From NCBI GenBank assembly GCA_947570615.1, contig CANOVJ010000029.1, positions 1-44,122 on the forward strand: a stretch of 44,122 nt of DNA. The letters are read 5' to 3'. Positions 19,359-31,660 of the stretch are shown piece by piece. The stretch's first letter is position 1. Each line of letters begins with the position of its first letter. The position numbers and the translations under genes were made by a program. The stretch comes from an uncultured Lachnospiraceae bacterium. GTDB taxonomy: Bacteria > Bacillota > Clostridia > Lachnospirales > Lachnospiraceae. The notes beneath the pieces are model-generated. The model saw only the letters and a list, made by a program, of their open reading frames with translations, was not told where the DNA came from and searched no databases.

Positions 19359-22300
19359 TTACGCCTCCAGCCGGACGGAAATCGTGTGCCCCATCCCTGC
19401 GCAAGGAACGCAGTACAGATCGCCTCTCCTCTCAAAGGAAGCCGCGACGCCGTCCTGCCGGATTTCCTTCACCTTCTCCTGCGTCAGGAACGCGAATTCT
19501 CCCCCGCTCTTTGAACGGATGAGATACTCCCCTTCGCAGACTGTGATAACCTCCACGCAGGCCGCCGAAATATATTTATCCGTGATTCCAACCACGCAGA
19601 TTCCCTTCTTCTGCGGGATCAGGTGAAACAGCTCCGCATCCTTCGGGGCAAGACTGAAAGGATACACCGTATCCTGGCCGCAGAGAAACGCCTCTTTCCT
19701 TTTCCAGTCGTATACCCAGAACTTTTCCCAGGAGCGCTCTGCTCCCGAGCGGGGCTCTCCCGAACCGCATGCTCCAAAGCCTTCTGCCTCCGGAGTACGT
19801 TCCTTCGTCTGCGCGGGAAGATCCGACGCCCTAAGGCTTCCCTCCAAGGGCTGCGCCGTCTCCTTCACAGGGATAGCCGCCACATAGACCACATCCTCAT
19901 AGCGGTTATAAATTTTCAGGATACCGTTTCCGTCCTCTCCGCCCCGGGTGAGGCAGTCCAGGGTTGGCCTTGCCACATCCTGACAGCGCAGGATGGAGCC
20001 GTCCTCCAGAATCACCGGCCAGATCTGCTCCGGATCCGTGTTGCCCGCCCCGTCGCTTAAGTAGACCGGACCGCCGCTGATCAGACGGATCATCATATTC
20101 TGGCGCACATCCTCGTGGATGGACCAGACCATGTCCCAGTCGCACCAGTAAAAGCATCCATGGTAAATGGCATTATATGCGTTCTGCAGTGCATGCTCCG
20201 TAAAGCTGCCCCGCACCGTAGGGGTAAAGTCGTCGCTGTTGCGGGAGAGGGACGCGCTCTGGCGGTTCCACACATCCTCCGGGGCCATGCCCATACAGTT
20301 GATCAGATTCCCGCCGAAATTCAGATCCGCAGAGGCCTCCAGTCCCGTGTGTACCGCCCGGGCCAGCTTTCCGTAGCTGCAGCTTCCCCGGGCCGCGATG
20401 GAGAAAGAGCTCTGGCTGTCCACCTTGATAAAATCCACTCCTGCCCTTTTCAGGTAAGCGTGCCACTGATTCCAGAAGCCGAAGGCCGCCTCCGCCTGCG
20501 GCCGCACGGTCAGCTCCCCGTTAGGATAACGAGTGAGATAAGCCCCCAGCTCCTTTTCTGCCTGGGAGCCCTCCTCCACGCCGCACCAGTAGCCCTTCAC
20601 CGCCTGCCAGACGCCCACCTGCTCCACCTGATACTCCTGCTTCAGGATCCGCACGGTCTCCCCAATCCCCTTCGGGAATTTCTCCGGATCCGCGTCCAGG
20701 CCTGCCAGCGTCAGCTTCTCCTGGTTGGCCAGAGACCACCCGTCGTCGATGAGCACCCAGGCGATGGGAAGGTTCTTTTCACGGAACTCGTCCATCTTCT
20801 CAAGGATGGCCTTTTCGTTCACCTTCTGTCCCAGGGAATCCCAGGTACACCAGCCGATCTTCTCAAAAATCCCCGGGAACTTTTTCTCCCGTCGCAGCTT
20901 AAGACCCTTTCCGGTAAGCCGCAGAGCCATCTGCGCCGCATCCTCAATCAGGGCGTAAGGCTCCTTCCCCCTGGCGTAAACCAGGGCCAGATCCGACATC
21001 TGCGTCTGATTTGCCAGATTGGAGGAGAGCGTCAGACGGATCCCGCCCTCGAAGCCCTCCAGATCCGCGCGGTTCTCCTGCCCGCTCACCGCCAGGAAAA
21101 TGTGATACGTCTCCTTATCCTTCATCACCACAAGCTGGCTCCTTTTCGGGATCTGCCCATATTCCGTTCCAAAGGCCGGACGCGTCCACCACTCCTTGTG
21201 CTGATAAATGGAGACAAAGGACATCTCCCCGGTCATTGAAAGCTCCAGGGCCATCCCCTCCTGTTCCGCGAGAGCCGGCTGATATCCGAAGTAAGGCATT
21301 GCCCTGTGCAGGCCGCCCGTCATTTTCAGCGCAAGTCTGCCGTCCTCCCGGATCTTCTCCACCTTTATCTGCCCCGCCTGGCCGGAAAAACGCATCCCGT
21401 CCGACGCCTCCTTCTCCTGCCCGGATTCCTCACACGTGAGGATGTTCTCCACACCGTCCCTGGTGCGCAGGATGGCCCGGGTCAGGGTAAAGGGCTCCCG
21501 CTTTGCCTCCAGGATCACCGCCTGAAAGGGCTCCAGACACAGCCCCTTTTCATCCCGATCCAGCTTATCATAATTGTTCAGCAGCACGCTGCCCGCCTCC
21601 TTCCACTCCACCCTGCAGCCATCGCTCTGATAGTTGCAGATCACAAACAGTTTCTTTTCCCCGTCGTCTCTGGAATATGCGAATATATAAGGATATTCCT
21701 CCAAAACCGGCTGCAGCTCTCCCAGGGCCAGGACATGAAAGAACGCGGGGCTCTTTTTCAGGGCAATCAGCCTTTTGTAAAAGGAAAGAAGAGAGCCGGG
21801 ATCCTTCCGCTGGGTCTCGATATTGATCTGATCATGATCAGGATTCACCTTCATCCAGGGCGTCCCCCGGGTAAATCCTGCGCCCTCCCCGCCGTCCCAG
21901 GAAACCGGATACCGGGCGTTGTCCCGGCTCATGATCTCTATGAAGGCGTGCGCCTGCTCCTTCGAAAATCCCTCCTCCAGAGCGTACTGATACTGGCTCA
22001 GAGAGGAGCAGTCGTCATACTCCTCGATGCTGTCAAAGTGGATATTGCGCATGCCGATCTCCTGTCCCTGATAGATAAAGGGGGTTCCCCGCAGACAGAA
22101 ATACAAAACCGCCAGCATGGACGCCCCGTAGAAATTCCGGCCCTGGGGCGGAAGATAGGTATCCACCGACCGGGGCGTGTCGTGGGATTCCATGGCATTG
22201 GCAAGCCACCCCTTCGGCTGGATGGAGAGCTGGGAGGTAAAGAGCGCCCGGCGGATATCGTTGGCATCCCAATTTTCCCTCTGGCACCAGAAAAAGTTGG

Positions 22301-23183
22301 GCCCCACCAGCCCCGGCTGCAGATGACTGATCTCGAAAATCGTGGAAAAGAATCCGTCCTTAAGGGAGATAAAGGGAAGCATCTCCTCCCCCTGGGCTCC
22401 GGCCACCTCCCCCACCGTGAAGGCGTCATAATTTCCGTAGGTTCTCTCCTTCATCTCGTTCAGAAAAACCTCGATGCCCGGACGGTTCAAGGCTCCATAT
22501 TTTACAGAGACCATCCCGTCCTTTCCGTCAGGCTCATAAGAGGGAAGACCTTCCTCCTTCTTGATATAAGTGATCGCGTCCAGCCGAAATCCGCTGACGC
22601 CCTTTTCCAGCCAGAAATTCATCATCCGGTAGATCTCCCCCCGCAGGGCGGGATTTTCCCAGTTCAGGTCCGGCTGCTGTTTCGTAAACAGATGCAGATA
22701 ATACCAATCTGTTCCGGAAACCCTCTCCCAGGCGCTTCCCCCGAATATGGAGCGCCAGTTATTGGGCGGACAGCCCTCCTTCCCCTTTCGGAAATAGAAG
22801 CAGCTTCCGTACTCCCCCTGGGGATCCGCCAGCGCCCTCTGAAACCACTCGTGCCGGTCGGAGCAGTGGTTGACCACCAGGTCCATAACGACCCTGATCC
22901 CCCGCTCCCTGGCCTGATCGATCAGCCGGTACATATCCTCATTGGTTCCAAAGGCCGGATTGATCGCATAGTAATCCGAGATATCGTATCCGTTGTCACA
23001 CATGGGCGACTGGTTTACCGGGCTTAACCAGATCAGATCTATCCCCAGCTCCCTCAGATAATCCAGCTTCCCGGTAATCCCGTTCAGATCCCCGATCCCG
23101 TCTCCATTGGAATCCATGAAGCTCTTGGGGTAAATCTGATAGGCCACCGCCCCCTGCCACCACTTCATTTCTACGGATTTCAT
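19359..23183 (-). CDS. Two-domain glycosidase: GH13 glucosidase fused to GH36 raffinose-synthase-like domain
   Basis: 1274 residues with two glycosidase units. Residues 1-560 are a GH13 enzyme of the oligo-1,6-glucosidase/sucrase type: region I MDLVVNHC (100-107), nucleophile Asp202 in GFRLDAI, acid/base Glu259 in FTVGEV, and Asp335 in ESHDTPRS; QPDLNWENP is also typical. Residues about 565-1274 are a GH36 domain of the Sip1/raffinose-synthase subgroup: IGWCTWDSLG (776-785), VLIDDGW (810-816), probable nucleophile Asp922 in FIKVDSQ, RNSDDF (981-986) and CDWDMVW (1014-1020). Both catalytic sets are present. No signal peptide is seen, so it acts on imported sugar. Removing galactose from raffinose-type sugars and splitting the sucrose left would suit the pair; this is inferred. 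It follows the ABC permeases. Confidence 0.85.
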   Translation of the reverse strand: MKSVEMKWWQGAVAYQIYPKSFMDSNGDGIGDLNGITGKLDYLRELGIDLIWLSPVNQSPMCDNGYDISDYYAINPAFGTNEDMYRLIDQARERGIRVVMDLVVNHCSDRHEWFQRALADPQGEYGSCFYFRKGKEGCPPNNWRSIFGGSAWERVSGTDWYYLHLFTKQQPDLNWENPALRGEIYRMMNFWLEKGVSGFRLDAITYIKKEEGLPSYEPDGKDGMVSVKYGALNRPGIEVFLNEMKERTYGNYDAFTVGEVAGAQGEEMLPFISLKDGFFSTIFEISHLQPGLVGPNFFWCQRENWDANDIRRALFTSQLSIQPKGWLANAMESHDTPRSVDTYLPPQGRNFYGASMLAVLYFCLRGTPFIYQGQEIGMRNIHFDSIEEYDDCSSLSQYQYALEEGFSKEQAHAFIEIMSRDNARYPVSWDGGEGAGFTRGTPWMKVNPDHDQINIETQRKDPGSLLSFYKRLIALKKSPAFFHVLALGELQPVLEEYPYIFAYSRDDGEKKLFVICNYQSDGCRVEWKEAGSVLLNNYDKLDRDEKGLCLEPFQAVILEAKREPFTLTRAILRTRDGVENILTCEESGQEKEASDGMRFSGQAGQIKVEKIREDGRLALKMTGGLHRAMPYFGYQPALAEQEGMALELSMTGEMSFVSIYQHKEWWTRPAFGTEYGQIPKRSQLVVMKDKETYHIFLAVSGQENRADLEGFEGGIRLTLSSNLANQTQMSDLALVYARGKEPYALIEDAAQMALRLTGKGLKLRREKKFPGIFEKIGWCTWDSLGQKVNEKAILEKMDEFREKNLPIAWVLIDDGWSLANQEKLTLAGLDADPEKFPKGIGETVRILKQEYQVEQVGVWQAVKGYWCGVEEGSQAEKELGAYLTRYPNGELTVRPQAEAAFGFWNQWHAYLKRAGVDFIKVDSQSSFSIAARGSCSYGKLARAVHTGLEASADLNFGGNLINCMGMAPEDVWNRQSASLSRNSDDFTPTVRGSFTEHALQNAYNAIYHGCFYWCDWDMVWSIHEDVRQNMMIRLISGGPVYLSDGAGNTDPEQIWPVILEDGSILRCQDVARPTLDCLTRGGEDGNGILKIYNRYEDVVYVAAIPVKETAQPLEGSLRASDLPAQTKERTPEAEGFGACGSGEPRSGAERSWEKFWVYDWKRKEAFLCGQDTVYPFSLAPKDAELFHLIPQKKGICVVGITDKYISAACVEVITVCEGEYLIRSKSGGEFAFLTQEKVKEIRQDGVAASFERRGDLYCVPCAGMGHTISVRLEA

Positions 23184-26834: not shown

Positions 26835-28364
26835 TCATACTTTCACAGCGTAAGCCCTGACTGGATCTGCCGCCTTCACCGTTCCTCCCGGAATGGTGGT
26901 GGTAAACGGAAATGTCCGGATCTCCATCTCGCAGCCCATTGGAGAAAAGCAAAAGCAGATTTCCTTACTGAAACACGTCTCCGGCCAGAGTGCCGTGACC
27001 GTGAAGCCGTTCTCACCGGAAAAGCAGCCGCTCATCAGCACCTGGTCCGGTACATTTCCGATCACCTCAAGCCGGTTCCCGGCCCTTGTGCCGTCAATGG
27101 CAATCTGCACCTGATGTTCCTTCTGATCCTGCAAAAAGCTCATTCTGACCCCATTTTTGGCAAAATCGAAGGAAAACTCCCTGATTCCTTCGGAAAAATC
27201 TCCTCCTACAAGCTCCTGCGCCATATTCGTCTCGAAGCAGAGCGCGCCCTCCCGGACCTGGTAGCGGATCTGATTATATCGCTCCAGCTCCTCCCGGTAG
27301 AGAGTATAATCGGGATTCTGAATACTCAGATGCCGAAGCCGGTAAGCCAGCGCCGCGCTCTCCTGCGGATTATCCGCAAGCGCAGTGACGTTCACATCCA
27401 CACGCTCCACAAACTCCCAGATGTAATCCAGCGTTTTCTGGATCCCCTCCGCCCCGATGGCTGTCTCATTCACAGAAATAATCATGTCCTGCGCCGGACA
27501 ACAGATGGAAAACTGTCCCATAGCTCCATCCGCCCGGTAAACGCCCTGCGGCTTACACATCCAGATCTGAAAGCCGTAGCCCAGAAAATTGTCCGCAGCC
27601 GGAGGATTCACCAGGATCTCCGTGGAGGAATCATTCTGACAGGAGGTGGCAAGCTTTACATAATCCTCCGCAAGGATCCTCTCTCCCTCCCACATTCCGC
27701 CGTCCAGATACAGCTTCATAAGCCGCAGATTATCCTCTGTGGCAGCAAACAGGCCTCCGCCGCCCACCTCCATACCATCCGGCATATGAAACCATCGAAG
27801 GTTGTCCGCATCAACGCCAATCTTGTCAAACAGCCTCGGCTTCAGATAATCGTGGAGCCCAAGACCGGTCAGCTTCCTGACAACAGCTCCAAGCAACGTG
27901 GAACCCATACTGTTATACATGAACGCAGTCCCCGGTTCATGCACCACCGGTATATGTAAAAAATCTCTGATCCAGTTCTTTGTGGGCGCAGGCATTTTTT
28001 CCATTCCACAGCCCATACACAACACATCCCGCACCCTGAGATGTGTGAGCAAAGGCTCCGGCATATCAGGCGCTTCCTCCGGAAAAATATCGATAATCCG
28101 ATCCTCCAGCTTAAGCAGCCCTTCCGTATATGCGATTCCCACCGCGGTGGCCGCCCATGTTTTGGTAAGCGACTGCAGACCGTGCCGCAGCCCCGGCGCA
28201 TAAGGACTCCACCATCCTTCGGCACAGATTTTGCCGTGGCGCATAATCATGATGCCGTGCATCTGCGTGTGCTCCCTCTCGAGCCGGTCCAGCAGGGCAT
28301 CGATCTCTCTGCTGTCAATCCCCACTTCCTCCGGCGTCACCCGCGCAAATTCTTTTCGTCTCAT
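26835..28364 (-). CDS. Beta-lactamase-family serine hydrolase
   Basis: 509 residues. The N-terminal class C beta-lactamase/esterase domain (about 1-340) has the catalytic SxxK pair Ser65-Lys68 in LQSLTK and the second-motif YNS in FMYNSMGS. No signal peptide is seen. The C-terminal 170 residues are a beta-rich extra domain found in cytosolic members of this family. Relatives include esterases, D-aminopeptidases and carbohydrate esterase-like enzymes. Being first in the run ahead of the sugar importer, removing acyl groups from an imported sugar is one possibility, but no substrate is established. The ATG at 28364 follows GGGAAAATT. Confidence 0.8.
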   Translation of the reverse strand: MRRKEFARVTPEEVGIDSREIDALLDRLEREHTQMHGIMIMRHGKICAEGWWSPYAPGLRHGLQSLTKTWAATAVGIAYTEGLLKLEDRIIDIFPEEAPDMPEPLLTHLRVRDVLCMGCGMEKMPAPTKNWIRDFLHIPVVHEPGTAFMYNSMGSTLLGAVVRKLTGLGLHDYLKPRLFDKIGVDADNLRWFHMPDGMEVGGGGLFAATEDNLRLMKLYLDGGMWEGERILAEDYVKLATSCQNDSSTEILVNPPAADNFLGYGFQIWMCKPQGVYRADGAMGQFSICCPAQDMIISVNETAIGAEGIQKTLDYIWEFVERVDVNVTALADNPQESAALAYRLRHLSIQNPDYTLYREELERYNQIRYQVREGALCFETNMAQELVGGDFSEGIREFSFDFAKNGVRMSFLQDQKEHQVQIAIDGTRAGNRLEVIGNVPDQVLMSGCFSGENGFTVTALWPETCFSKEICFCFSPMGCEMEIRTFPFTTTIPGGTVKAADPVRAYAVKV

Positions 28365-28464
28365 AATTTTCCCATTTCTGCGCAGCCCTCTGCACATGTA
28401 AGGTTTTAACGCTTCCCTTTATCTTCTCGAACTTATGTTTTGATTTTTCGTTATCTCTAAGTCA

Positions 28465-28802: not shown

Positions 28803-30431
28803 TTATCCAAGTAAGGACAGAACGCCCTGGTTGGACTGATTCGCCTGTGCGAGCATAGCCTGGCCGGCCTGTGCAAGGATATTGTTGTTGGAGTATTTTA
28901 CCATCTCGGTGGCCATGTCCGTATCGCGGATCTGGGACTCTGCGGCGGTGGTGTTCTCCACAATATTGTCCAGGTTGTTGATGGTGTGCTCCAGGCGGTT
29001 CTGGACCGCGCCCAGATCGGAACGCTGCTGGGATACCTTCTTGATTGCGCCCTTGAGGGTCTCGATGGTCTCTCTTGCGCTGTCCTGTGTGGTAACGCCC
29101 GTCTCCTTGAGAACGTCAACCCCGATTCCTGCCGCGCTCATGGCCTCGATCTCCACACTGATGGTGTTGCGCAGGTCGCCCTCTGCTCCTACATGCAGTC
29201 TGAACTCCAGCATGGGACCTGCCGCCCCGGCTTCGGGCTTAAAATCGAAGTATTTGCCGATCTGCTCGGCGCCGATCTCTACCACAGTGCCGGTTCCGTC
29301 ATCCAGGAAAAGCCCTCCCTTGTATACGCCAAACTCATCGAAATAGGTAGATACCGTATCGTCTGTCAGAGCCGGGCCGGTAGCGGAGCCTGCCAGAATG
29401 GGGGTTCCCTTCGCCTCGAAATAGGTTCCCAGGTCAGCTTCCGCAATCTGCTGCGCGCCGGTCTGAGGAGTCTGAGCCCCATGAGGCGTATTGACGTCCG
29501 CGGCAACCTTATACAGCATCGCGCCGTCCTTGTACTTTAAGTTTCCATCGGCATCCAATTCCACGTACTTGTCGAGGGTGCCGGTGGTTGCAGTGGTCGC
29601 GGCGGTCCCCGTAACTACAGCTACACCAGTGGAAGTCGTTCCAGCACCGACATTCGCAGCAGCCAGATTAGCGGCCGTTACAAAGGTGAGGCCCGCTTTT
29701 GCAGTGACAGTCCCGTCATCCGCCACATCAAAATAGGTGGCAAGATTTGCTGCTGTTACCTCCACATGGTCGGTTGCTGATGTGCCGCCGCCTGAAGGGC
29801 TCACACATAATACATTTGTCCCAAGCGCAGTCGCATCCAGCGCCATGGATGCCGCTGTGGCTCCACTGGTAGCCGTAACCGCGTCCGTCTCGCCGGCCCC
29901 GTACACAGCCGCCGCGCCGGCCTTAAGCCCAATCGTCATCTCTCCCAGCTTCTTCGCCGCGTCATTCATGGTGACGGTCTGTTTAACGGCCGGAGCGTCT
30001 GCCGCGGCGTCGTTTCCGCCCTTGAGCAGATACAGCTCGTTGAACTTGGTGGTCTCGGCCACACGGTCGATCTCGTCGATCAGGGCATTGACCTCGCTCT
30101 GGATGTACTCGCGCTCCTCCGAGGAATTCGTTCCGTTGGCCGCCTTGGTTGCCAGCTCGTTCATTCTCTGGAGCATGTCGTGTACTTCGGTGAGAGCGCC
30201 CTCCGCCGTCTGTACCGCGCTGATCCCGTCCTGCGCATTCAGGGAAGCCTGCGTGAGACCTCTGATCTGCCTTCTCATCTTCTCGCTGATGGCCAGACCC
30301 GCCGCATCATCCGCCGCACGGTTGATCTTATAACCGGATGATAATTTCTCGGTGGACTTTGCCTGTGACTTTGTGGTCAGACCGAGCATTCTGTTCGAGT
30401 TCATTGCCGTTAAATTGTGTTGTACTACCAT
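28803..30431 (-). CDS. fliC: Flagellin
   Basis: 542 residues. The conserved D0/D1 N-terminal part (about 1-165) includes MVVQHNLTAMNSNRMLGL and INRAADDAAGLAISEKMR. The D0/D1 C-terminal part (about 445-542) ends QANQSNQGVLSLLG. These polymerise as the filament core. The middle (about 170-440) is an Ala/Thr/Gly/Val-rich, lysine-poor surface domain, unlike the ends. There is no signal peptide, as expected for the flagellar type III exporter. The ATG follows AAGGAGG. csrA lies 114 bp upstream on the same strand, and no sigma-28 promoter is seen between them, so fliC should depend on a promoter ahead of csrA. The leader carries a CsrA-like hairpin. The only sigma-28 promoter nearby is in the invertible segment, pointing away. 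Confidence 0.96.
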   Translation of the reverse strand: MVVQHNLTAMNSNRMLGLTTKSQAKSTEKLSSGYKINRAADDAAGLAISEKMRRQIRGLTQASLNAQDGISAVQTAEGALTEVHDMLQRMNELATKAANGTNSSEEREYIQSEVNALIDEIDRVAETTKFNELYLLKGGNDAAADAPAVKQTVTMNDAAKKLGEMTIGLKAGAAAVYGAGETDAVTATSGATAASMALDATALGTNVLCVSPSGGGTSATDHVEVTAANLATYFDVADDGTVTAKAGLTFVTAANLAAANVGAGTTSTGVAVVTGTAATTATTGTLDKYVELDADGNLKYKDGAMLYKVAADVNTPHGAQTPQTGAQQIAEADLGTYFEAKGTPILAGSATGPALTDDTVSTYFDEFGVYKGGLFLDDGTGTVVEIGAEQIGKYFDFKPEAGAAGPMLEFRLHVGAEGDLRNTISVEIEAMSAAGIGVDVLKETGVTTQDSARETIETLKGAIKKVSQQRSDLGAVQNRLEHTINNLDNIVENTTAAESQIRDTDMATEMVKYSNNNILAQAGQAMLAQANQSNQGVLSLLG

Positions 30432-30438
30432 AATTTTA

Positions 30439-30475
30439 CCTCCTTGGCTGTACCGAATGTAAATCCGTTTACATT
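30439..30475 (-). promoter_or_regulatory. Candidate CsrA-binding leader of flagellin mRNA
   Basis: On the minus strand AATGTAAA-CGGA-TTTACATT is a perfect 8-bp stem presenting CGGA in a 4-nt loop (30475-30456). The ribosome binding site AAGGAGG (30445-30439) gives a second GGA about 22 nt downstream. A GGA in a hairpin loop plus one at the Shine-Dalgarno is the known layout for CsrA repression of hag in Bacillus subtilis. The csrA gene is immediately upstream, which strengthens the case. Confidence 0.75.
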
Positions 30476-30545: not shown

Positions 30546-30821
30546 CTACCTCTGCGGACAGCGCTTTACCTGCGCCTTTGCTTTTCCGGCTTCCCTCTTC
30601 ACATATCTCTCCGGATGCTCCTGCTGCGCGTAATATCTGGGGAGCTGCGCCCTCTCCTGTTCCGTGGCGTTTTTCTCAAGTACGGTGCTCCTGACGATGT
30701 TCTTATCCCGGGGAGCGTCCACCATGATCCTTAAGTGCTTCCCCGTTCCGCCCAAAAACACCAGCCTGATATCCTCGCCGATCATCAGATATTCTTCCGT
30801 GCTCACTGTCAGTCTTAACAT
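30546..30821 (-). CDS. csrA: CsrA-family translational repressor
   Basis: 91 residues. The MLRLTVSTEEYLMIGEDI opening, then the FLGGTGKHLRIMVDAPRD strand and Arg44 in NIVRSTV match CsrA, a dimeric RNA-binding protein that covers GGA motifs at ribosome binding sites and represses flagellin until FliW removes it. Two unusual features stand out: the usual Arg6 of the LTR stretch is Val, and there is a basic C-terminal extension of about 30 residues (CsrA is commonly 61-75). The ATG at 30821 follows GGGAGG; the frame runs further upstream into the inverted repeat without support. It is upstream of fliC on the same strand and downstream of the left recombination repeat, so both genes would be read by the promoter of the inverted segment. 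Confidence 0.88.
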   Translation of the reverse strand: MLRLTVSTEEYLMIGEDIRLVFLGGTGKHLRIMVDAPRDKNIVRSTVLEKNATEQERAQLPRYYAQQEHPERYVKREAGKAKAQVKRCPQR

Positions 30822-30860: not shown

Positions 30861-30893
30861 CGAATGCAACACTCTGTTAACAAGTGTTGCATT
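30861..30893 (+). repeat. Left inverted repeat (IR-L) of a predicted invertible segment
   Basis: 33 bp beginning CGAATGCAACAC and ending AGTGTTGCATT, itself nearly palindromic: 10-11-bp arms around a centre containing TGTTAACA. Its reverse complement recurs at 31619-31651 with one mismatch and no gap. Paired arms around a short core are the usual form of a tyrosine-recombinase site. It lies 39 bp upstream of the csrA ATG. Confidence 0.9.
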
Positions 30894-30898
30894 ATAAT
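30893..30898 (+). promoter_or_regulatory. -10 box of the recombinase gene at the repeat edge
   Basis: A perfect TATAAT begins at the last base of IR-L, about 50 bp upstream of the recombinase ATG. Any -35 contact would fall inside the repeat, where no good TTGACA is seen. Because the two repeats are nearly identical, the promoter would keep the same upstream bases in either orientation. Confidence 0.45.
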
Positions 30899-30947
30899 TA
30901 AAACAGCCGCCGGACGCCTGTTTTACACGAAAGGAGCATATTCAAAA

Positions 30948-31532
30948 ATGAGCACAACACAGCCAATCAGAGATTCCGCATTGCTTCATGAGTTCAAGGA
31001 TTTTTATCTGGAAAAGGAGAGAAACATCCGAAACTACGCCCTGTGCATACTGGGGCTGAACACTGCCCTGCGCATCACGGATATTCTGGAATTGAAATGG
31101 GGAGATCTGTATGATTTCAGCAGAAACTGTTTTCTGGAGCATCTGACTGTCACAGAAAAAAAGACCGGGAAGTCGAGCACAATCGCCCTGAACCACTCGG
31201 TCGTTGACACCTTCACCACATACAGAGGGCAGCTTTCGGCGCCTCCCGCCAGGGATACCTGCCTGTTTCCCAGCCGTAAGGGCACAAATCAGCCCTTAAG
31301 CCGCAGCCAGGCCTTCCGGGTTATCAAAAGGGCCGCCCGCTCCGTGGGCCTGTGCCAGCATGTAAGCTGTCATTCCCTGCGCAAGACCTTTGGCTACCAC
31401 GCCTGGCAGCAGGGGACGCCGCCCGCTCTGCTGATGAATATTTATAATCATTCCTCCTACCAGATCACAAAACGGTATCTGGGAATTGAACAGGAGGATC
31501 GGGATAATGTTTTCAAAAATATTTCCTTATAA
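30948..31532 (+). CDS. Small tyrosine recombinase (FimB/FimE-size DNA invertase)
   Basis: 194 residues, essentially only the catalytic domain with no N-terminal SAM-like arm, matching the size of the FimB/FimE phase-variation recombinases. The catalytic set is complete: Arg42 in NTALRITDIL, a beta-hairpin Lys in EKKTGKSS, His142-x-x-Arg145 in CHSLRKTFG, His168 in YNHSSYQ, and the nucleophile Tyr177 in TKRYLGI. It would cut and exchange strands at the flanking 33-bp repeats. The ATG at 30948 follows AAAGGAG; the frame extends upstream through IR-L without support. No terminator follows inside the segment, so in this orientation its message ends at the right repeat, and in the other it could read on into csrA-fliC. 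Confidence 0.93.
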   Translation: MSTTQPIRDSALLHEFKDFYLEKERNIRNYALCILGLNTALRITDILELKWGDLYDFSRNCFLEHLTVTEKKTGKSSTIALNHSVVDTFTTYRGQLSAPPARDTCLFPSRKGTNQPLSRSQAFRVIKRAARSVGLCQHVSCHSLRKTFGYHAWQQGTPPALLMNIYNHSSYQITKRYLGIEQEDRDNVFKNISL

Positions 31533-31573
31533 AAAGGCTCGGAATAAACTTCAAAAAATTTTAAAATCCGCCC

Positions 31574-31600
31574 TAAAGTATTTCCGGCTCAGGCCGATAA
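31574..31600 (+). promoter_or_regulatory. Perfect sigma-28 (FliA/SigD) promoter facing out of the segment
   Basis: TAAA (31574-31577), exactly 15 bp, then GCCGATAA (31593-31600), the full consensus for flagellar sigma-28. The bases after TAAA (GTAT) also approach the extended form TAAAGTTT. Transcription would start near 31607, about 12 bp before IR-R. No plus-strand gene lies downstream; the next gene at 31771 is on the other strand. Inverted, it would read through IR-L into csrA and fliC. Confidence 0.88.
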
Positions 31601-31617
31601 ATATAATAGCAGACGGG

Positions 31618-31660
31618 GAATGCAACACTTGTTAACAGTGTGTTGCATTCGTCTTTTTTT
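31618..31660 (+). terminator. Terminator formed by IR-R plus T7
   Basis: Read on the plus strand, GAATGCAACAC and GTGTTGCATTC form an 11-bp stem, followed after GTC by seven T (31654-31660). It would stop transcripts from the sigma-28 promoter after about 50 nt and also end the recombinase message. IR-L has no T-run on its outer side, so the blocking effect is specific to this side. Confidence 0.75.
31619..31651 (-). repeat. Right inverted repeat (IR-R) of the predicted invertible segment
   Basis: On the minus strand it reads CGAATGCAACAC, one mismatch (A for T), then CTGTTAACAAGTGTTGCATT, the same as IR-L for 32 of 33 bases. Sequence similarity stops sharply at both ends of the repeats. The inverted alignment is gap-free, whereas a direct-repeat alignment needs gaps. 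Confidence 0.9.

Follow-up and report, generated by a model that had tools for sequence, protein, structure and literature searches.

Background

The fim switch of E. coli works by promoter inversion, which is carried out by FimB and FimE, tyrosine recombinases of about 200 aa. In Salmonella, FljA represses fliC by a translational mechanism and does not belong to the CsrA family. Flagellins are ligands of TLR5 and targets of phages.

Passages of PMC9368917 describe FljA as a repressor of fliC and place its action at the promoter. The Salmonella H segment (hin, fljBA) carries the recombinase gene and a promoter inside the flipping DNA, and its second flagellin is co-encoded with a repressor of the other one. 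The flagellar switch of C. difficile (Cdi4) is 154 bp long with 21-bp repeats; its tyrosine recombinase RecV is encoded elsewhere, its target is the flgB operon and it regulates after transcription initiation (portions of PMC5386303). In the FliW-CsrA-Hag system of Bacillus subtilis, CsrA blocks flagellin translation at leader sites, one of them over the Shine-Dalgarno sequence (portions of PMC7652899 and PMC6529632). In PMC3720852, commensals of the genera Eubacterium and Roseburia are described as having flagellins that promote inflammation and vary in abundance in the gut.

Here we analyze a stretch of 44,122 nt (the window), which is contig C29 of a 4.05-Mb assembly of a motile gut bacterium, an uncultured member of the Lachnospiraceae (112 contigs, 94.8% complete). 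A first-pass annotation had predicted in it a self-contained tyrosine-recombinase switch of csrA and flagellin. We consider it very probable that positions 30861-31651 are indeed a self-contained invertible promoter controlling two genes, here called csrA2 and fliC2. The sequence itself provides the sites, the recombinase gene, the promoter, the asymmetry of the flanks and the conservation.

The predicted invertible segment and its recombination sites

The predicted segment (30861..31651, 791 bp with both sites included) is delimited by inverted repeats. As already seen in the first pass, they are 33 nt long and occupy 30861-30893 and 31619-31651; the repeat search confirms identity in 32/33 positions (97% complementary). 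Only one gene, that of a small tyrosine recombinase, lies between them. Each repeat is an imperfect palindrome, in which half-sites of about 11 bp flank a short asymmetric spacer, as in a recombination site. The proximal site on the csrA side (30861..30893, plus strand) is composed of half-sites AATGCAACACT and AGTGTTGCATT with the spacer CTGTTAACA, and there is no T-run on its outer side. The distal site (31619..31651, minus strand) has the very same spacer. The site core pattern matches twice in the window, both times with 0 mismatches, against a mean of 0 in 100 dinucleotide shuffles.

Because tyrosine recombinases require matching overlap sequences, identity of the central bases is the expected mark of recombination. 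Over the 42 related loci described below, the six central bases of the two sites differ within a locus in 0/252 cases, whereas shuffling of the distal hexamers among loci yields a mean of 139.6 mismatches and a minimum of 114 (1000 shuffles). There are 29 distinct central hexamers among the 42 loci, and spacers differ by about half from locus to locus. Half-sites do diverge within loci (15.8% in the outer and 7.4% in the inner ones); the repeat finder requires an exact 8-base seed, which favors similar arms, but this does not bias toward the center over the half-sites. The promoter is thus surrounded by inverted sites with matching crossover regions. None of the 42 spacers is palindromic, so the sites presumably gain direction and inversion would be favored. 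To judge from these comparisons, the identical central bases show at least past exchange, not its present rate.

The recombinase

The gene inside the segment (30948..31532, plus strand) encodes the complete tyrosine recombinase of 194 aa announced by the first-pass annotation. It matches Phage_integrase PF00589 with 93.2 bits (cut-off 27.1) and its catalytic residues are intact: R42, K72, H142, R145, H168 and Y177 are invariant across 21 aligned recombinase sequences and correspond to R-K-HxxR-H-Y, which we take to be the catalytic set of tyrosine recombinases. PF00589 is the sole Pfam match at E 0.001, and a serine recombinase domain as in Salmonella Hin is not among the matches. The best solved relative of the 21-sequence profile is XerA (5hxy) with 51.9 bits.

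In four comparisons with close relatives, dN/dS is 0.083-0.105 for the recombinase and 0.097-0.182 for csrA2; some dS values exceed 1, so the ratios are rough. Judged by these ratios, both genes are under purifying selection, which would be hard to explain if they were never expressed.

With the Salmonella H segment, the locus shares an invertase gene and a promoter between inverted sites, adjoining a second flagellin operon. A co-encoded repressor of the other flagellin is here a candidate only and, unlike FljA, a CsrA-family protein (CsrA2). Hin is a serine recombinase, while that of the window is a tyrosine recombinase. The locus works like the H segment without being a member of it, since its recombinase is of other class; an independent, convergent likeness to Hin-fljBA with an unrelated recombinase, as first proposed, is supported. 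The E. coli fim switch likewise has tyrosine recombinases of this size and an inverting promoter. The recombinase of the window nevertheless reaches only 42.1 and 48.7 bits with NF007370 and NF007371, NCBIfam models of tyrosine-type DNA invertases that presumably represent FimB/FimE, and stays below their cut-offs of 221 and 222. Further, its gene lies inside the segment and the target is flagellin. In one relative, L077, the gene lies outside, and the 181-bp inverted-repeat segment (L077:9375-9555) holds the promoter only. As in Cdi4, a tyrosine recombinase of a clostridium would invert DNA that controls flagella; unlike in Cdi4, the recombinase is encoded inside the segment, the promoter moves and the target is one flagellin operon. 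The B. subtilis system differs in that here a second CsrA, lacking the FliW-contact residue, is added under control of the switch. As far as the accessible text of openly licensed PMC literature goes, we found no description of a tyrosine-recombinase csrA2-fliC2 switch; inverton surveys by PhaseFinder/PhaVa (PMC11868660) may list such loci.

Promoter and likely terminator

A sigma-28-type promoter, TAAAGTATTTCCGGCTCAGGCCGATAA, is located near the right end of the segment (31574..31600, plus strand) and points out of it, away from csrA-fliC. It is the only 0-mismatch match to TAAAGT-N13-GCCGATAA in the window, in agreement with the perfect outward promoter noticed before. The looser pattern TAAA-N15-GCCGATAA alone is weak, since it has 4 exact matches genome-wide and, with one mismatch allowed, 25 matches compared with 22 for a reversed control. 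An earlier pattern with wrong spacing (7 matches, 8.06 expected) was dropped in favor of TAAAGT-N13-GCCGATAA. Combined promoter and site form a specific pattern, present in 5/397 family and 12/37 genus genomes (own genome in both); its reversed control occurs 0 times among the matches listed for these genomes. The host genome encodes a FliA-type sigma factor.

The best sigma-28 match of the segment lies near its distal end and points outward in all 42 loci, the window included. Scores are at least 13.6 in 40 of them; the other two are L161 (8.1) and L079, whose 2.5 is indistinct from its second-best match of 1.8 on the opposite strand. Within 900 nt outside the segment, sigma-28 matches above 12 that face csrA or fliC are found in 0/42 loci.

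The hairpin of the distal site together with a T-run just beyond the segment (31617..31660, plus strand, RNA fold -20.2 kcal/mol) is a likely terminator. On the csrA flank, a T-run is usually absent. The T-run is stronger outside the distal than outside the proximal site in 38/42 loci, equal in four (L075, L079, L080, L086) and weaker in 0 (Wilcoxon p 6e-8). This asymmetry suggests that the flanks are built as a terminator on one side and a target operon on the other.

The probable course of the switch is as follows. The internal recombinase would bind the two palindromic sites, and strand exchange across the identical central spacer would flip the segment. In the sequenced state, predicted to be OFF, the sigma-28 promoter would fire outward into the hairpin and T-run. 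Inversion (ON) would bring it to the upstream side of csrA2, at a distance of about 90 bp, from where it would drive csrA2-fliC2; the transcript would run on across the proximal site, where the outer flank is free of a T-run. Cells in the ON state would then make a second flagellin, larger than the main one, in addition to it or in its place. Inversion in living cells, transcription of csrA2-fliC2 in the ON state and the role of the new filament are what we infer from the sequence.

Conservation of the layout

Searches for the recombinase covered 37 genomes of the genus, a species-genome collection (68 loci) and 397 genomes of the family; at E 1e-40 or better, the family yielded 30 matches, counting the own genome. 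We scanned 112 loci for repeats (14 from the genus, 68 from the species collection, 29 from the family and the window), 110 of them with a recombinase match. A repeat pair with neighboring csrA or flagellin was present in 47; after removal of five duplicates (L058, L059, L070, L155, L159), 42 non-redundant loci share the layout, the window among them; near-identical pairs, for example L064/L065 and L075/L080, are still counted. By recombinase sequence, L029 equals L058 and L030 equals L059, L029 and L030 coming from two genomes of the same genus.

Ten loci were left unoriented (L041, L087, L089, L094, L106, L110, L120, L156, L169, L174); a repeat pair is present in them, but neither csrA nor flagellin was found in the stretch. 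Twelve had a target and no repeat pair found by the script; for L058 and L067 the repeats were then set by hand. Scanning the ten pairless loci and the target-less L063 revealed no target-facing match above 5.4; outward matches reached 12.2 (L031) and 18.9 (L157).

The recombinase gene points away from csrA, as in the window, in 35/42 loci and toward it in 7/42 (type B). The csrA2 class, defined by matches to profile positions 1-50 with 57.8-65.1 bits, is present in 13/37 genus genomes, and 12 of the 13 also have a close recombinase, the exception being G025. Four genomes (G015, G020, G030, G034) harbor two places each with recombinase and csrA2. In G015, two csrA2-fliC2-recombinase modules are about 6.5 kb apart (G015:C17:212385-220516); in the other three, the modules are on separate contigs. 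Two modules with different site sequences are found together in the genomes of L029 and L069 and of L061 and L067. That relatives have the same layout points to promoter inversion as a means by which gut commensals vary their flagellar coat.

Several other arrangements were observed. In L207 (G006:C161), a second csrA2-fliC pair is present about 3.5 kb from the switch module with a site upstream, and neither recombinase nor promoter was found in the 700 bases examined there. A second flagellin adjoins a recombinase gene fragment near the intact module of L060 (5437-6181). More distant relatives of the recombinase (L091-L106, L109; 40-47% identity) lie in stretches where neither csrA nor flagellin was matched; one of them, in L094, is surrounded by 167-bp inverted repeats, and the assembly CAJTCR contains four copies of such a relative.

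Orientation of the predicted switch

The sequenced state of the window was originally predicted OFF, and the promoter pointing away from csrA-fliC bears this out. The same orientation is found in 42/42 loci. Five further modules also point away by coordinates (G019:C14, G210:C3, the second in G015:C17, G020:C26, G034:C25; G026:C82 is not counted). An intact ON form was not found among the loci surveyed. The first-pass annotation had proposed a search for the flipped form in related genomes and had named its absence as refuting; on this point the outcome, none in 42 loci, is against it.

Two kinds of ON candidates were rejected. Type-B loci are not flipped forms. In them, too, the promoter faces away from the target, which makes them OFF loci whose recombinase gene is reversed within the segment. 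In L082, which is uncounted, the repeats lie on the left-hand side of the recombinase gene and do not enclose the promoter preceding fliC.

With ON and OFF at equal frequency in the populations sampled, 42/42 OFF would be very unlikely. Either OFF predominates, or inversion is rare or biased, or the switch is locked. Biased recombinases do exist, as FimE is limited to the ON to OFF direction (a passage of PMC5386303). The named records in our set are mostly metagenome assemblies, which report the majority form.

Could the switch of these lineages have been active once and now be locked OFF, fully or almost so, with its recombinase decaying or kept for another reason? Apart from the single orientation, some cases of decay fit such a view. 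There is an in-frame stop in the L168 recombinase, those of L111 and L115 are matched in two pieces, and L146, in a one-contig genome, has fliC, recombinase and one recognizable site, while a repeat pair and csrA were not found. Further, in G025:C155 (L251), csrA2 is accompanied by both sites, of which the proximal one is decayed, and by a promoter that points outward (score 14.2), and the DNA between the sites lacks a recombinase gene; by its sequence, this is likely a relic stuck OFF. Permanently silent genes should decay, however, and the dN/dS of about 0.1 for the recombinase and 0.10-0.18 for csrA2 (four close relatives) counts against locking, as do central spacers identical in 42/42 loci despite their fast evolution. 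We regard locking as improbable.

The genome G010 provides what looks like the opposite outcome. In its locus L220 (G010:C70), a flagellin with a fliC2-type leader has a sigma-28 promoter directly upstream, together with a type-B site that has decayed. The promoter-linker-site stretch is identical to the OFF composite of L249, from the same genus, in 58/73 columns; the alignment scores 83, and 200 shuffles reach 45 at most. Shuffles are also exceeded in alignments with L245, L247 and L234; with the type-A composites L236, L241 and L238 they are not. G010 has a single csrA, no csrA2 and no close recombinase (best 1.9e-8), in a genome 89% complete. On the alignment, L220 looks like a fossil ON junction of a lineage that would have become fixed ON and lost the rest, as drawn from this one genome, 89% complete.

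L220 also bears on a different reading, which takes the outward orientation as the working state. The promoter would produce a short RNA ending at the distal hairpin, and csrA2-fliC2 would use another, unrecognized promoter. The uniform outward direction in 42/42 loci agrees with this, and the hairpin and T-run would indeed stop such a transcript. Yet no other sigma-28 match above 12 is present within 900 nt (a scan that concerns sigma-28 promoters only), and in L220 this promoter-site unit precedes a flagellin. We hold this reading to be very improbable. For the invertible promoter, the uniform OFF state across assemblies is a sharp, testable oddity.

The predicted switched operon and the main flagellin

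Of the csrA and flagellin genes reported 40 bp beyond the left repeat on the minus strand, the placement is right for csrA2 (30546..30821, minus strand, 91 aa), which is 39 bp to the left of the repeat; fliC2 (28803..30431, minus strand, 542 aa), the predicted switched gene, only follows downstream of csrA2. The self-contained switch proposed in the first pass is supported by spacer identity, terminator asymmetry, purifying selection and one fossil ON junction. Its two targets had to be corrected: the flagellin is a second one and csrA is a diverged paralogue.

The main flagellin is located elsewhere in the genome, on C9, and has its own sigma-28 promoter (score 29.5 on a matrix trained on switch promoters), which is why fliC2 is regarded as second. 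C9 also carries FlgK, FliD-like and FlaG-like genes, and fliW next to a canonical csrA of 74 aa (csrA1). Two more flagellin-like genes are on C5 and C14. The first 101 residues of fliC2 and the main flagellin are 93% identical. Counted from the corresponding start, the main flagellin has 272 aa and fliC2 has 542, so that a large central domain would be gained in the ON state. Since the main flagellin is under a fixed promoter, it is probably filament composition that switches, rather than motility.

CsrA2 matches PF02599 with 57.2 bits (cut-off 27) and falls below the CsrA equivalog cut-offs of NF002469 (35.3 bits, 73 required) and TIGR00202 (26.7 bits, 70.1 required). Arg44 is retained in 42/42 csrA2 and Leu4 in 34/42, while Asn55 is present in 0/42; each of the three residues is found in 30/30 canonical csrA. 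Parts of PMC7652899 name Arg44 and Leu4 as particularly critical for RNA binding by CsrA, and parts of PMC6529632 report that the N55D protein of B. subtilis CsrA is deficient in FliW binding. From retained Arg44 and missing Asn55, CsrA2 may be a FliW-blind flagellin repressor in the part played by FljA in Salmonella. The case for RNA binding is weakened by other changes: Arg6 of csrA1 is replaced by a hydrophobic residue in 42/42 csrA2, and just 12/42 have K or R at position 7. The alignment at position 55 is uncertain because csrA2 tails vary in length, and three csrA2 have N one column away.

The leader of fliC2 contains a hairpin, AATGTAA-ACGGAT-TTACATT, with an ANGGAN loop of CsrA type (30456..30475, minus strand, upstream of fliC2). 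Such hairpins occur in 36/39 fliC2 leaders (three of the 42 loci have no flagellin start) versus 27/1950 shuffled leaders; 3/36 are over the Shine-Dalgarno site. Among main-flagellin leaders, 14/15 have one, counted without shuffle control, and 7/14 best hairpins lie over the Shine-Dalgarno site. By GGA density, the leaders of main, switched and other flagellins cannot be told apart (3.28, 3.21 and 3.30 per 100 nt).

These data allow a tentative extension of the switch, which we think possible and rather doubtful: ON might also silence the main flagellin, if the FliW-blind CsrA2 represses its translation and flagellins are exchanged as with FljA. The residue pattern of csrA2, the N55D precedent, the hairpins of main leaders, the adjacency of fliW and csrA1 in the own genome and the single csrA of the fossil-ON genome are in favor. 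The changes at residues 6 and 7, the alignment at 55, the uncontrolled count of main-leader hairpins and the 89% completeness of G010 weigh against it. So do the hairpins of fliC2 leaders, by which CsrA2 may equally act on fliC2 itself. The full scheme is about as doubtful. It would be a convergent re-invention of the Salmonella flagellin exchange, in which ON supplies the new flagellin together with CsrA2; blind to FliW, CsrA2 would silence the main flagellin post-transcriptionally, so that the filament is swapped. The scheme would recur across Lachnospiraceae, twice in some genomes, and be OFF in most gut cells.

If a conserved DNA switch sets which flagellin a commensal displays, the dealings of the commensal with immunity and phages become testable at one locus. 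The classic flagellin switch of Salmonella would have an independent counterpart with an unrelated recombinase, and CsrA would gain a phase-variable copy.

Other genes of the window

Positions 26835-28397 (minus strand) encode a beta-lactamase-family protein, which scores 214.6 bits with a model of 3-succinylated cholic acid synthase, far under its cut-off of 800. A protein of 1274 aa encoded at 19359-23183 (minus strand) combines an alpha-amylase domain with a raffinose synthase-like domain.
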